Positions 21,501 through 26,072 of a stretch of DNA of 64,000 bases are shown piece after piece. The notes under the pieces were generated by a model that made no database searches, had not been told where the DNA came from, and saw nothing but the letters and a program-made list of their open reading frames with translations. Position numbers and translations under genes: made by a program. Position 1 is the stretch's first letter; every line of letters begins with the position of its first letter. The DNA comes from Alicyclobacillus sacchari (GTDB taxonomy: Bacteria > Bacillota > Bacilli > Alicyclobacillales > Alicyclobacillaceae), in assembly GCF_004366795.1 (NCBI RefSeq), contig NZ_SORF01000007.1, positions 62,001-126,000 of the forward strand. The letters are read 5' to 3'.

Positions 21501-22907
21501 TCATCGTGAGACGTGGTGAATGGATCGGGATCGACTGGTCCCTGCAGTAGGATGGCGATGCGATCTCGCTTGTGGAGCAACGCTGGCTTCGTTGAGCGTT
21601 TGTTGTGTGGTTTCTGGCGCAAGGAGGACACAGACGACGAGACCTCCCAAGGTCACGAGCGCACCGACGAGCATGGTGGGTCCAATGCCAAAGCGTGACA
21701 AGCCCCATGGGAACAAGTAGGTTCCGAACACCGCCCCGAAGCGGCTGATGCACGTCGTGATGCCGACGGCTGTACCACGCACTTCGGTTGGGAACAACTC
21801 GTTTGGCGCCAGCCACTCCATCACGTTGGGGCCGCCCGAGAACAGTGCGTACAAGATAAAGCCAAGCAAGATGACGGCAAGCGGTCCGCTCGGGAAGAAT
21901 CCTAGCAAGGCAATCCCGACCGTCATACCGGCGAAAGCGATGATGATCAATCGCCGCCGTCCCCAGCGATTGACAAGAAAGAGGGCTGGAATACAACCAA
22001 TCAGAAACAGCGCGCTGATGATGGCCGCACCATATCCCGATGCACCTGTGAAGAGGTGATAGGATGTCAGCATTTCCGGCCCGAACGTGAGCATGGCGAA
22101 CAGCGGGGCGACGGCCGCCATGTAAAACAGGCCGACGTACAATGTGCGTTTGACGTAGGCGCGCGAGAACAGCTTTAGATAACTGGTTCTACCCTGGCTT
22201 TCGGTTGGTACCTCGATATCTTCGAGGGAAGCCTCCGGGCCATAGACCGCCTGCAGAACCTTCAGTGCTTCTTGTTTACGCCCCTGTTGTAACAACCAAC
22301 GAGGGGATTCCGGCGTGCCCATGCGTAAAAGTACCAAGATGACCGCCGGCACTGCACTGCTGGCCAAGATCCAGCGCCAAGCCTCCGGGCCGATGGCGAG
22401 CATCCATTGGCCGACCAGATAGGCGACGGTCGATCCGACATAATACGCGACTAATGTCACGCCGAGCATCATTCCGCGATGCCGACGCGGCGCAAACTCG
22501 GTTAGCAGCGATGTGGCAATTGGGTAATCCGCACCGACGGAAATCCCCAGAATGATGCGTAGGGCAAACAACTCCCACGCATTGTGGACGAAGAACTGGA
22601 GAACGGAAGCGACGATGAGCAAGATGAAGTCGATGGTGTACATCAGTTGGCGGCCAAATTTGTCGGTTATATAGCCGAGAAATCCGCCTATGAAGATCCC
22701 AATCAATGCAGACGCGCCAATCAAGCCGCTCCAAGTTGCGTTCAACTGCAATTGGGGCGTGATTTGCGTGAGCGCGATCGCGATGATGCTGAGAATGTAT
22801 CCGTCGAGAAAGGGACCGCCCGACGAATAGACGGTGAGTTTTAGGTGAAACGGACTAAAGCTCGCGTCCTCCACCACATTGGTGGTTTTTGCAGACAAAC
22901 TTGCCAT
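21501..22907 (-). CDS. MFS transporter, sugar-porter-like
   Basis: Twelve-helix secondary transporter of 468 residues. Signatures include GYITDKFGRQ between helices 2 and 3, the RIILGISVGADYPIATSLLTE-type block (shown here by LGISVGADYPI) and PRRHRGMMLG, with RWGRRR in the second half. The substrate is not known; relatives carry sugars, aromatic acids or phosphate. ATG 22907 abuts an AAAGGGG site, so TTG 22898 (spacing eight) may be the real start. It is the first full-length gene downstream of the c-di-AMP riboswitch on this strand, about 290 bases away. Confidence 0.88.
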   Translation of the reverse strand: MASLSAKTTNVVEDASFSPFHLKLTVYSSGGPFLDGYILSIIAIALTQITPQLQLNATWSGLIGASALIGIFIGGFLGYITDKFGRQLMYTIDFILLIVASVLQFFVHNAWELFALRIILGISVGADYPIATSLLTEFAPRRHRGMMLGVTLVAYYVGSTVAYLVGQWMLAIGPEAWRWILASSAVPAVILVLLRMGTPESPRWLLQQGRKQEALKVLQAVYGPEASLEDIEVPTESQGRTSYLKLFSRAYVKRTLYVGLFYMAAVAPLFAMLTFGPEMLTSYHLFTGASGYGAAIISALFLIGCIPALFLVNRWGRRRLIIIAFAGMTVGIALLGFFPSGPLAVILLGFILYALFSGGPNVMEWLAPNELFPTEVRGTAVGITTCISRFGAVFGTYLFPWGLSRFGIGPTMLVGALVTLGGLVVCVLLAPETTQQTLNEASVAPQARSHRHPTAGTSRSRSIHHVSR

Positions 22908-23179: not shown

Positions 23180-23200
23180 GGGTATAACACTCCTTTCATG

Positions 23201-23307
23201 ACGCTTGCGAGGTTAGCTGACGGGTTAGGGCTGAAAGGCGCCCCACGCGATACATGCGTTTCACCCCAGGTATGGGTCCCCCGCTTCCCTGGACGGGAAT
23301 TCAGCGT
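23201..23307 (-). promoter_or_regulatory. c-di-AMP riboswitch (ydaO/yuaA type)
   Basis: Read on the minus strand, the segment begins ACGCTGAATTCCC and ends CAGCTAACCTCGCAAGCGT; ACGCT and AGCGT pair as the closing P1 stem. Internal conserved blocks of the class are present: GCGGGGGACCCA, TGGGGTGAA, then CCTAACCCGTCAGC. This class binds cyclic di-AMP and normally turns off genes for potassium and osmolyte transport or wall hydrolases. Here a 28-codon frame follows at once, and an MFS transporter lies about 290 bases on. No clear terminator is seen, so control could be translational. Confidence 0.9.
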
Positions 23308-23328
23308 TGCAACGTGACGTTACACTCA

Positions 23329-23365: not shown

Positions 23366-23519
23366 TTGTCCACAAGGCTAGTCTAACTTGTCCACAGCTT
23401 ATCCCCATTTATCCACAACAAACTGTGGAGAACTGCAGTGCTGCTGAAACTTGGCTTGTGTATAATGTCGATTGAGTCATCAACAGGCTTGTGGATAAGC
23501 TGGTTGGCGATGTGGATTG
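23366..23519. promoter_or_regulatory. DnaA-box cluster upstream of mtnW
   Basis: Eight sites resembling the DnaA box TTATCCACA fall in 154 bases. Perfect boxes: 23409-23417 (plus) and 23490-23498 (minus). One-mismatch boxes: 23366-23374, 23388-23396, 23399-23407, 23424-23432 (minus) and 23457-23465 (minus, TTATACACA). A two-mismatch box is at 23511-23519 (minus). The 23457 box overlaps the -10 of the mtnW promoter. DnaA binding here is a strong inference; a role in replication control or in transcription of mtnW are both possible. Confidence 0.8.
23439..23466 (+). promoter_or_regulatory. Probable mtnW promoter
   Basis: A perfect TATAAT at 23461-23466 lies about 70 bases upstream of mtnW. The -35 (TGCTGA, 23439-23444, spacer 16) is weak, as expected for a promoter that needs an activator or is modulated. 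DnaA boxes overlap and flank it. Confidence 0.5.
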
Positions 23520-23537: not shown

Positions 23538-24785
23538 ATGGACGATACCATTCATGCGGGTACTGATACCGATTCACGGTATGTGGTAGCCACATATCGG
23601 TTGCGCGATCGCGCCGATACATTGGAAGCTCGTGCCGAAGGGATTGCCATCGGGCTCACCATCGGCACGTGGACAGATTTGCCGAACGCCCGCAAAGCGC
23701 AGGTGGCAGCACATTGCGGTCGCGTGGAAGGGATTCGCGTCATCGACGAAGCGGCGCCAGGAGGCGTGATCGCGGAAATTGACATCGCGTATCCTGTGGC
23801 GAATCTGGACACCACCTTCGCGTCATTGCTGACGACTGTCTTTGGCAAGTTGTCGATGGACGGCGAAATTCGTTTACAGCGTTTGCATCTGCCGGAAGAC
23901 TTGGAGCGTGCATATCCAGGGCCCAAGTTTGGCGTCAGTGGCGTTCGCGAACGCTTTGGCGTATACGGCCGGCCGCTGGTGATGAGTATTTTCAAGGCCT
24001 GTGCGGGCCTCACGTTGGATGAGCTGGTGGATCAATTTGGAGAACAGGCGGCTGGTGGGGTCGATCTGGTCAAAGACGATGAGATTTTCTTTAGCGAGGT
24101 ACATGCCTCTGCCGCTGAGCGCGTTGTGGCGTATCGGGAAAAGGCGCGCGAGGTGGCGGCGCAAACAGGGCGTGAGACAGCATATGCCGTCAATCTGACG
24201 GGGCCTGTTCACCAATTGCGCGATAAGGCCAAGCGCCTTGCCGAACTTGGCGCCGGTGCCCTCCTGGTTAACGTCGTTGCCTACGGATTTGACGTCCTTG
24301 CCGATCTCGCACGCGATCCCGACATCTCCGTGCCGATATTGGCGCATCCTGCGGTATCCGGGGCTTTGTACGGTTCGCCGAACTACGGCATCGCCGCTGA
24401 TATCGTTCTGGGTCAACTCATGCGCTTGGCGGGGGCTGACATGGGCATTTTCCCGTCGATGTACGGCAGCGTCACATTGGGAGGCGAGGCGACGGAGCAA
24501 TTGCTTGCCCATTTGCGTAAGGATGGCGTCCATCGCAAGGTCTTACCCGCACCCTCGGCAGGCATTTACCCGGGGCTCGTTCCGCAGCTGTACCGGGACT
24601 TCGGCATCGATTTGATTCTGAACGCAGGCGGTGGTATCCACGGTCACCCGGGTGGTGCAAGTATGGGGGGACAGGCGTTTTTCGATGCCATTTCGGCAGT
24701 TCAACAAGGGCAATCACTCCAAGCCGCGGCTGTGGATAAACCGGCTCTTGCCGCCGCCATCGCGAAATGGGGGGCACGGGCGTGA
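23538..24785 (+). CDS. mtnW: 2,3-diketo-5-methylthiopentyl-1-phosphate enolase (RuBisCO-like)
   Basis: Methionine salvage enolase of 415 residues, a RuBisCO-like protein. The metal site is in GGVDLVKDDE, where Lys179 would be carbamylated and Asp181 and Glu182 bind magnesium. Other RuBisCO-fold blocks (GPKFGVSGVRE, FPSMYGSVTLGG, GGGIHGHPGG) are present, while loop residues needed for carboxylation are not expected in this class. Starts at ATG 23538 after AAGGGG. It overlaps mtnX by four bases (GTGA). Confidence 0.95.
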   Translation: MDDTIHAGTDTDSRYVVATYRLRDRADTLEARAEGIAIGLTIGTWTDLPNARKAQVAAHCGRVEGIRVIDEAAPGGVIAEIDIAYPVANLDTTFASLLTTVFGKLSMDGEIRLQRLHLPEDLERAYPGPKFGVSGVRERFGVYGRPLVMSIFKACAGLTLDELVDQFGEQAAGGVDLVKDDEIFFSEVHASAAERVVAYREKAREVAAQTGRETAYAVNLTGPVHQLRDKAKRLAELGAGALLVNVVAYGFDVLADLARDPDISVPILAHPAVSGALYGSPNYGIAADIVLGQLMRLAGADMGIFPSMYGSVTLGGEATEQLLAHLRKDGVHRKVLPAPSAGIYPGLVPQLYRDFGIDLILNAGGGIHGHPGGASMGGQAFFDAISAVQQGQSLQAAAVDKPALAAAIAKWGARA

Positions 24786-25131
24786 CGGTTCATGTCATTT
24801 GCGATTTCGACGGCACGATTTCTCAACGCGACATGATCACAGCGATTATGGAGCGATTCGTGCCGAAGGAAAGCCGGCCGATCATCGACGCAGTCAAGGC
24901 GGGCCGACAAACGGTCAAGGAAGGCGTCGAAGCGATGTTTGAACTGATCCCGTCAAATCATTACGACGAGGTCGCTCGTTATGCACAGGAGCACACACAA
25001 GTTCGGCGAGGTTTTCCACAATTCATCCACACCTGTGTACAACTTGGGTGGAAATTGTCCGTAGTCAGCGGTGGATTCGACTTTTTTGTGATGCCGGTTA
25101 TCCACAAGTTCTCCACAGATGCTGTGGACAT
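24731..25131. other. Further DnaA-box-like sites within mtnW-mtnX
   Basis: Perfect boxes occur at 24731-24739 (minus) and 25098-25106 (plus). One-mismatch boxes occur at 25012-25020, 25023-25031 and 25109-25117, and a weaker one at 25123-25131 (minus). They lie inside coding sequence, 1.2 to 1.6 kb from the main cluster. Confidence 0.6.
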
Positions 25132-25456
25132 CTATTGTAACCATCTTGATACGAGCGGCCCACGCCTGCGTGTGCAGTGGTCACATCCTTGTGATCAGGC
25201 GTGTGAAGGTGGTTGTGGACTTTGTAAACCGAGCGTCATTCGGCAACGAGTTCATTCAGGGGACGGCGTGATCGTCATCGGCGATGGTGTAACGGATTTT
25301 AAAGCCGCAAAGATGGCAGATTTCGTGTTTGCGCGGGCTCAACTCTTGAAGCTTGTCGAGGAGCGCAGGATCCCACATCTGCCGTTCGCAACGTTTGACG
25401 ATATCATAGCTGCTATCGACGACAAGGAGGGGCCACTTCATGCCCACATACAATGA
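24782..25456 (+). CDS. mtnX: 2-hydroxy-3-keto-5-methylthiopentenyl-1-phosphate phosphatase
   Basis: HAD-family phosphatase of 224 residues for the step after MtnW. The catalytic DFDGT lies at residues 8-12, motif II Ser in VVSGGFDFF, and the motif III/IV block is IGDGVTDFKAAKMAD. GTG 24782 overlaps the mtnW stop. Two Cys pairs (CDQACEGGCGLC) are typical of MtnX. DnaA-box-like sequences fall within this gene. Confidence 0.94.
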   Translation: MTVHVICDFDGTISQRDMITAIMERFVPKESRPIIDAVKAGRQTVKEGVEAMFELIPSNHYDEVARYAQEHTQVRRGFPQFIHTCVQLGWKLSVVSGGFDFFVMPVIHKFSTDAVDIYCNHLDTSGPRLRVQWSHPCDQACEGGCGLCKPSVIRQRVHSGDGVIVIGDGVTDFKAAKMADFVFARAQLLKLVEERRIPHLPFATFDDIIAAIDDKEGPLHAHIQ

Positions 25457-26072
25457 ACAGGCGGAGGGCGTGATCGAACTCGCACGCTTTGCGTCGGAAA
25501 AAGGTTGGTTGCCTGCAACCAGCGGAAATCTCTCAGTCTTGGTCGAGCGCGATCCCCTTTTATTTGCGATCACGCGCAGCGGTGCGGACAAGCAGCGCTT
25601 GACCGATCAGGACGTGTTGCTCGTTGACGCTCACATGCAGGTACAAGGCGATACGCCATATCGACCATCTGCTGAGACGACCGTCCATGTGGCGCTGTAT
25701 CACAAACTGCCGTGCGGCAGCATCCTGCACGTACACACGGTGTATAATAATTTGGTTAGCGAGCTGTTCGCTCGCCAGGGATATGTCGAGATTGCACATC
25801 ACGAATTGCTCAAGGCACTTGGCCATTGGGAGGAGAACGCATCTGTAAGAATCCCAATCGTTCCGAATTGGTCGGATTTAAACCAACTCGGTCAAGCTGT
25901 GGCGGATGTTGCCCAAGCTGACGTGCCGGCTGTGCTGGTGCGGGCGCATGGCGTGTACGCATTTGGCGAAACGCCGGATGCTGCACGTCGCCACTTGGAG
26001 GCTGTGGAGTTCCTTTGTGAGTATGTATATAGGCTGGAGTTGATCCGTGCAGCCGGCTTTGTAGCTCCATAA
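25440..26072 (+). CDS. mtnB: Methylthioribulose-1-phosphate dehydratase
   Basis: Class II aldolase-type zinc enzyme of 210 residues. The metal-binding HVHTVYN is near residue 97 and the third His in RAHGVYAFG near 160; ATSGNLSV at the N-terminus binds phosphate. It overlaps mtnX by 17 bases, with an AAGGAGG site inside mtnX. Substrate flow is MtnB, then MtnW, MtnX and MtnD, so the window holds four steps; mtnA, mtnK and the final transaminase lie elsewhere. Confidence 0.94.
   Translation: MPTYNEQAEGVIELARFASEKGWLPATSGNLSVLVERDPLLFAITRSGADKQRLTDQDVLLVDAHMQVQGDTPYRPSAETTVHVALYHKLPCGSILHVHTVYNNLVSELFARQGYVEIAHHELLKALGHWEENASVRIPIVPNWSDLNQLGQAVADVAQADVPAVLVRAHGVYAFGETPDAARRHLEAVEFLCEYVYRLELIRAAGFVAP

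Follow-up and report, generated by a model that had tools for sequence, protein, structure and literature searches.

A conserved two-part DnaA-box locus at mtnW and mtnX in Alicyclobacillus, with a predicted role in replication control

What is a dense set of DnaA boxes doing at a pair of methionine-salvage genes? The question is raised by the window, that is, the whole stretch of 64,000 nucleotides analysed here, which lies on contig 7 of the Alicyclobacillus sacchari draft assembly (2.95 Mb, 66 contigs). A scan of this stretch revealed seven 9-mers with at most one mismatch to TTATCCACA in 133 bases upstream of mtnW (cluster A; Table 1). An earlier note, made from the sequence alone, had counted two perfect boxes, five with one mismatch and an eighth, and had placed one box over the TATAAT of mtnW; these readings are borne out, the eighth box carrying two mismatches. 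A promoter scan of the window called no promoter at this TATAAT. Absent from that note is a second box cluster (B), located about 1.7 kb downstream of cluster A within the coding sequence of mtnX. The interior of mtnX holds five boxes of at most one mismatch (24979-25117), and relatives show extra cluster B matches at about 25034 and 25120, positions at each of which the window has two mismatches.

The genes follow the order mtnW, mtnX and mtnB-like, with names assigned from family membership and gene order, and MtnW shares 87% protein identity with A. tengchongensis and A. hesperidum. Upstream of mtnW and divergent from it lie a sugar-porter-type MFS gene and an ARD-family (mtnD-like) gene. 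The former is preceded by a c-di-AMP riboswitch that is shared with L001 and L002 and absent from L003-L008 and L014. A link between riboswitch and clusters was considered and rejected, since L003-L008 carry clusters without the riboswitch and L014 has neither.

Table 1. Coordinates of genes and DnaA boxes around mtnW and mtnX (window positions)
Feature	Position	Strand	Basis or remark
Sugar-porter-type MFS gene	21501..22907	-	divergent from mtnW
c-di-AMP riboswitch	23188..23316	-	ahead of the MFS gene
Cluster A, seven DnaA boxes (at most one mismatch)	23366..23498	23366+, 23388+, 23399+, 23409+, 23424-, 23457-, 23490-	9-mer scan; 23409(+) and 23490(-) perfect, the other five with one mismatch
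Convergent box pair, core of cluster A, starts 15 bp apart	23409..23432	both	pair and spacing identical in 15/15 genus genomes
Box TTATACACA (23457-23465) overlapping TATAAT (23461-23466)	23457..23466	-	sequence reading
Weak box CAATCCACA, two mismatches	23511..23519	-	sequence reading
mtnW (RuBisCO-like protein)	23538..24785	+	Pfam PF00016
Perfect box near mtnW 3' end	24731..24739	-	among 60 relatives scanned, same place only in L001 and L002
mtnX (HAD-type phosphatase), the gene that contains cluster B	24767..25456	+	Pfam PF12710
Box TTATGCACA in mtnX	24979..24987	+	window's own genome only among 15 genus genomes; not conserved
Cluster B, boxes 25012, 25023 and 25098, 25109 (two tandem pairs, 11 bp apart)	25012..25117	+	inside mtnX; 9-mer scan
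mtnB-like gene (class II aldolase family)	25440..26072	+	ORF list, Pfam

Within the window, 24 one-mismatch 9-mers were found against 9.5 from dinucleotide shuffles, and none of 100 shuffles reached 24. The draft genome contains 576 9-mers within one mismatch. Perfect 9-mers number 25 in 2.95 Mb, or one per 118 kb, which agrees well with the chance rate of about one per 130 kb put forward earlier; seven of the 25 sit at oriC around dnaA (C15) and four at the mtnW/X locus. With a uniform rate assumed, Poisson expectations per genome are 1.6e-10 for cluster A and 9.8e-6 for cluster B, or 6.5e-4 when B is reduced to its four conserved boxes.

Clustering across the genome was judged from the full list of TTATNCACA matches together with two pair patterns. 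TTATNCACA occurs at 74 places, and at least three matches fall within about 150 bp at oriC, at the mtnW/X locus and at C3:29941-30048. Counting overlapping matches, the mtnW/X locus holds five of the 10 direct-pair and six of the 11 convergent-pair matches in its own genome; oriC has one direct and three convergent, gcp one and none, and the reversed-pattern controls for the two patterns gave two matches each. By these pattern scans, which follow up a genome-wide search proposed in the earlier note, comparable clusters exist in the same genome only at oriC and gcp/ydiF. Five contiguous relatives have 14-19 direct-pair matches per genome, two or three of these at mtnW/X, and contain further box groups without counterpart in the window's genome.

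Other, unconserved box groups occur in G009 and G010 (L169:2566-2597, L170:2467-2498, L174:2506-2537, L175:2492-2520), those of L169 and L170 near ORFs that by eye resemble ParA-type ATPases. In G009, G010 and G014, perfect DnaA boxes lie near both ends of a repeated transposase gene (L164:2414-4206, also L163, L165 and L167), the tested copy of which is a DDE_Tnp_1. An origin of the clusters from such a box-bearing transposon was rejected, as their spacing is conserved and none of the ORFs listed near the clusters looks like a transposase gene (ORFs judged by eye, five of them by Pfam).

The conservation check suggested in the earlier note gave a clear result: clusters A and B, together with mtnX, are present in all 15 genomes of the genus, the window's own included. 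In each of them, cluster A contains the convergent 15-bp pair and cluster B one or more 11-bp tandem pairs, and the distance between A and B stays within 1676-1724 bp, with MtnX identity to the window going down to 59% in these cluster-bearing genomes. The box columns of cluster A form islands of conservation in the upstream alignment, with 0.773 identity in the other 14 genus genomes versus 0.450 in other columns, the boxes being defined from the window alone (54 box and 162 other columns, at most three gaps each). Choosing instead the columns that lie in a box in at least eight of 15 rows gives 0.825 versus 0.447, a partly circular selection, so that the window-only test is the fairer one. 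TGTGTATAATG, which sets a box over TATAAT, is found upstream of mtnW in 10 of the 15 genomes; five have an upstream stretch without TATAAT and nonetheless keep upstream boxes. In the fastidiosus group (L079-L083), mtnW itself carries additional boxes, TTGTCCACA(-) in five of five loci and, 74 bp further, TTATCCACA(+) in four of five.

Outside the genus the picture is different. The family list includes 26 other-genus genomes, seven without an mtnX match and 19 with mtnX, and none of these 19 has a cluster at mtnW or mtnX, mtnWXB without clusters being the usual state there. From this absence, the genus seems to have gained its clusters at mtnW/X. Three of the 19 have a box group within 10 kb, which in G034 and G033 (genus g6) lies 3.6-4.6 kb upstream of mtnW, beyond a glpD-like gene, and in G042 (g12) 3 kb upstream. 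A scan of 60 of 61 loci, the fragment L061 being excluded, found at least three boxes upstream of mtnW in eight (L001-L008, all Alicyclobacillus) and at most two in the other 52, among them A. montanus (L009), Alicyclobacillus sp. SP_1 (L011) and A. mengziensis (L014). A. montanus and sp. SP_1, which the genome table places in a different genus, have a box group at the 3' end of a glpD-like gene that lies upstream of mtnW, at a distance of about 4 kb (L009:1931-2491, L011:1398-1589).

The position of cluster B inside a gene allows selection on DNA to be separated from selection on protein. Synonymous-codon conservation, measured as the share of same-residue genome pairs with an identical codon relative to expectation, is 0.457 over expectation in 23 box codons versus 0.121 in the 571 others of mtnW and mtnX (p 2e-10). 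This six-box set includes two sites recognised from relatives; a four-box set of 15 codons defined from the window only still gives p 1e-6. The best 35-codon stretch across both genes spans 25025-25130 (0.354), the best one clear of cluster B reaching 0.208; the first 12 mtnX codons, which overlap the end of mtnW, are also high (ratio 1.73). In G015 (L080), an in-frame TAG interrupts mtnX ahead of cluster B, whose boxes are still present; the G015 row of the alignment ends at this codon, which leaves 14 genomes for the comparison of cluster B codons. As a control, 15 mtnX loci from other genera gave no synonymous signal (0.027 vs 0.038, p 0.51). Codons placed in the boxes are uncommon elsewhere in mtnW and mtnX (Leu TTA 20/784, Val GTT 87/861, Thr ACA 62/359). 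At the protein level, [VI]-I-H-x-x-S-T is read over cluster B in all 14 genus proteins compared, and the same place of MtnX in other genera has residues such as A-L-A-P-F-R. Judged from these codon patterns, cluster B is under selection as DNA. Since synonymous codon choice is frozen where the boxes lie, and other genera lack the signal and have a different protein there, the gain of boxes appears to have altered MtnX, so that the enzyme seems to bear the imprint of the DNA sites. These species retained the sites with almost constant spacing, synonymous positions in an enzyme gene included, while MtnX identity to the window dropped to 59%. The locus also suggests that DNA sites tied to replication are able to constrain a metabolic protein and to remodel it.

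In six contiguous genus genomes mtnX and dnaA share a strand and lie 118-334 kb apart, a distance of 3.9-7.2% of the chromosome. Among genomes of other genera without clusters, the distance is 142-191 kb in G031, G037 and G039 and 726-874 kb in G024 and G026. An initial idea, that oriC-proximity and clusters arose jointly, was rejected, since mtnX is near oriC in three genomes without clusters. The box group at C3:29941-30048 (L063:7942-8049, contig 3 of G000) lies between tsaD (gcp) and an ABC-transporter-type gene, which are convergent with one small ORF between them (genes by Pfam), a setting that matches the B. subtilis gcp/ydiF DnaA region as described in the available part of PMC4447404. 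In a scan of 30 of 41 family genomes, at least two boxes within 1.5 kb downstream of tsaD were found in 26 of the 30, comprising 15/15 in the genus and 11/15 outside. At this site in A. acidiphilus (L136), eight TCATCCACA repeats in steps of 16-17 bp, 929-1053 bases past the tsaD match, precede the usual 21-bp box pair.

This is a real, strongly conserved, two-part DnaA-box locus with one half in coding sequence, and with a function that is predicted. The literature searched (titles and abstract beginnings) describes no DnaA-box cluster at mtnW or mtnX. A dense box set kept throughout the genus, half of it inside coding sequence, probably helps to time chromosome copying. With moderate confidence, and by analogy with better-known clusters, we propose that A and B act as one oriC-proximal bipartite locus, to which DnaA binds and which holds back initiation; mtnWX transcription is perhaps dampened as well. 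DnaA would bind cooperatively to A, through the convergent pair and its neighbours, and to B, through the tandem pairs. Every round of replication copies the locus early, so its duplication could soak up DnaA, or oligomerise and inactivate it, and re-initiation would be restrained as in B. subtilis clusters and E. coli datA. At high DnaA levels, occupancy of A may also reduce mtnWX transcription, possibly together with a loop that joins A and B across mtnW.

An effect on transcription is plausible because a box overlaps TATAAT in 10 of the 15 genomes, and the main rival explanation makes it the whole function: DnaA would switch methionine salvage, with A over TATAAT and B as a roadblock or loop tuning mtnWX by the ATP-DnaA level or replication stress, and replication effects would be incidental. 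The earlier note had offered a replication-control locus or such a switch as alternatives. We lean to the former because cluster B sits in mtnX, the five TATAAT-less species keep their upstream boxes and the gcp/ydiF cluster is away from mtn genes; we retain the switch, as a possible but less probable reading, because the genus clusters stay with mtnWX and most genomes keep the box over TATAAT. In its favour, both clusters lie within the mtnWX unit in all 15 genomes, and several B. subtilis clusters are places where DnaA activates or represses, according to the part of PMC4447404 consulted. Against it, cluster B is some 1.6 kb into the operon, the gcp cluster sits between convergent gene ends, and mtnWXB as a rule has no clusters in other genera. 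The place of B and the persistence of boxes without TATAAT speak against transcription as the sole reason for the boxes. Replication control faces contrary evidence of its own: oriC-proximity is no predictor of clusters (G031, G037 and G039 are near oriC and cluster-free), the genus clusters are always at mtnWX, which is equally expected for a transcription role, and relatives carry other, unconserved box groups. The 9-mers might also be sites of another regulator, such as a dimeric methionine-related repressor reading the convergent pair, an inverted repeat at the core of A in 15 of 15 genomes. We consider this improbable, given that the identical 9-mer in perfect form composes oriC around dnaA in the same genome and that B is mostly tandem rather than inverted.

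More speculatively, the locus could be a bipartite mimic of the origin, in which two arrays at oriC-like spacing, free of an unwinding element, compete with oriC through a DnaA loop across mtnW and tie initiation to the methionine-salvage operon, one array being overprinted on mtnX and forcing amino-acid changes; we regard this as rather unlikely. A second or former replication origin is very improbable. Two box clusters do flank one gene, and their inner gap of about 1.5 kb resembles that of oriC, whose clusters lie around dnaA, but the best 50 bp have an A+T content of 62% in cluster A and of 60% in cluster B, compared with 74% between dnaA and dnaN, and GC skew keeps one sign in all 16 window blocks. 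Hardly any credence is left for a chance cluster of 9-mers that are individually common, an idea already contradicted by conservation in all 15 genomes and by the minute expected numbers of clusters.

The preferred reading, a DnaA-binding locus that restrains initiation, touches on a point on which reviews differ, namely the importance of DnaA-box clusters beyond oriC in Firmicutes, and the locus offers a natural test. In the sections consulted, PMC5742627 has clusters repressing untimely initiation in B. subtilis and Streptomyces; PMC5295017 judges B. subtilis clusters not significant for control and reports early initiation upon loss of six clusters; PMC13220808 reports no over-initiation when DnaA is overproduced 10-fold in B. 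subtilis. The available text of PMC4447404 does not contain the term 'mtn' and so names no such site among the B. subtilis DnaA regions.

How does the locus compare with known systems? Like the bipartite oriC around dnaA, it consists of two box clusters with one gene between and inner gaps of about 1.5 kb, a spacing that may be coincidental; unlike oriC, it has no AT-rich unwinding stretch beside A or B. With E. coli datA (and DARS1/2) it shares conserved boxes away from oriC, and negative control of initiation would be a further likeness. In contrast to datA, which is non-coding and needs an IHF site according to the consulted parts of PMC5742627 and PMC4585315, cluster B lies inside mtnX; B. 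subtilis, in the corresponding portion of PMC13220808, has neither IHF nor datA-type control. The eight strongest B. subtilis DnaA regions lie between or upstream of genes and weaker ones inside genes such as codV and rplB, as far as the consulted text of PMC4447404 goes; unlike those strongest regions, half of the conserved mtnW/X cluster is intragenic and under synonymous selection. The nearest likeness is to the B. subtilis clusters outside oriC, in the gcp/ydiF, yqeG/sda, ywlC, ywcI/vpr, yydA and trmE regions. Here too several near-consensus boxes stand away from oriC in a span of about 150 bp, some of them by a candidate promoter, close to oriC in the six contiguous genus genomes, and gcp/ydiF is a cluster site common to Alicyclobacillus and Bacillus.
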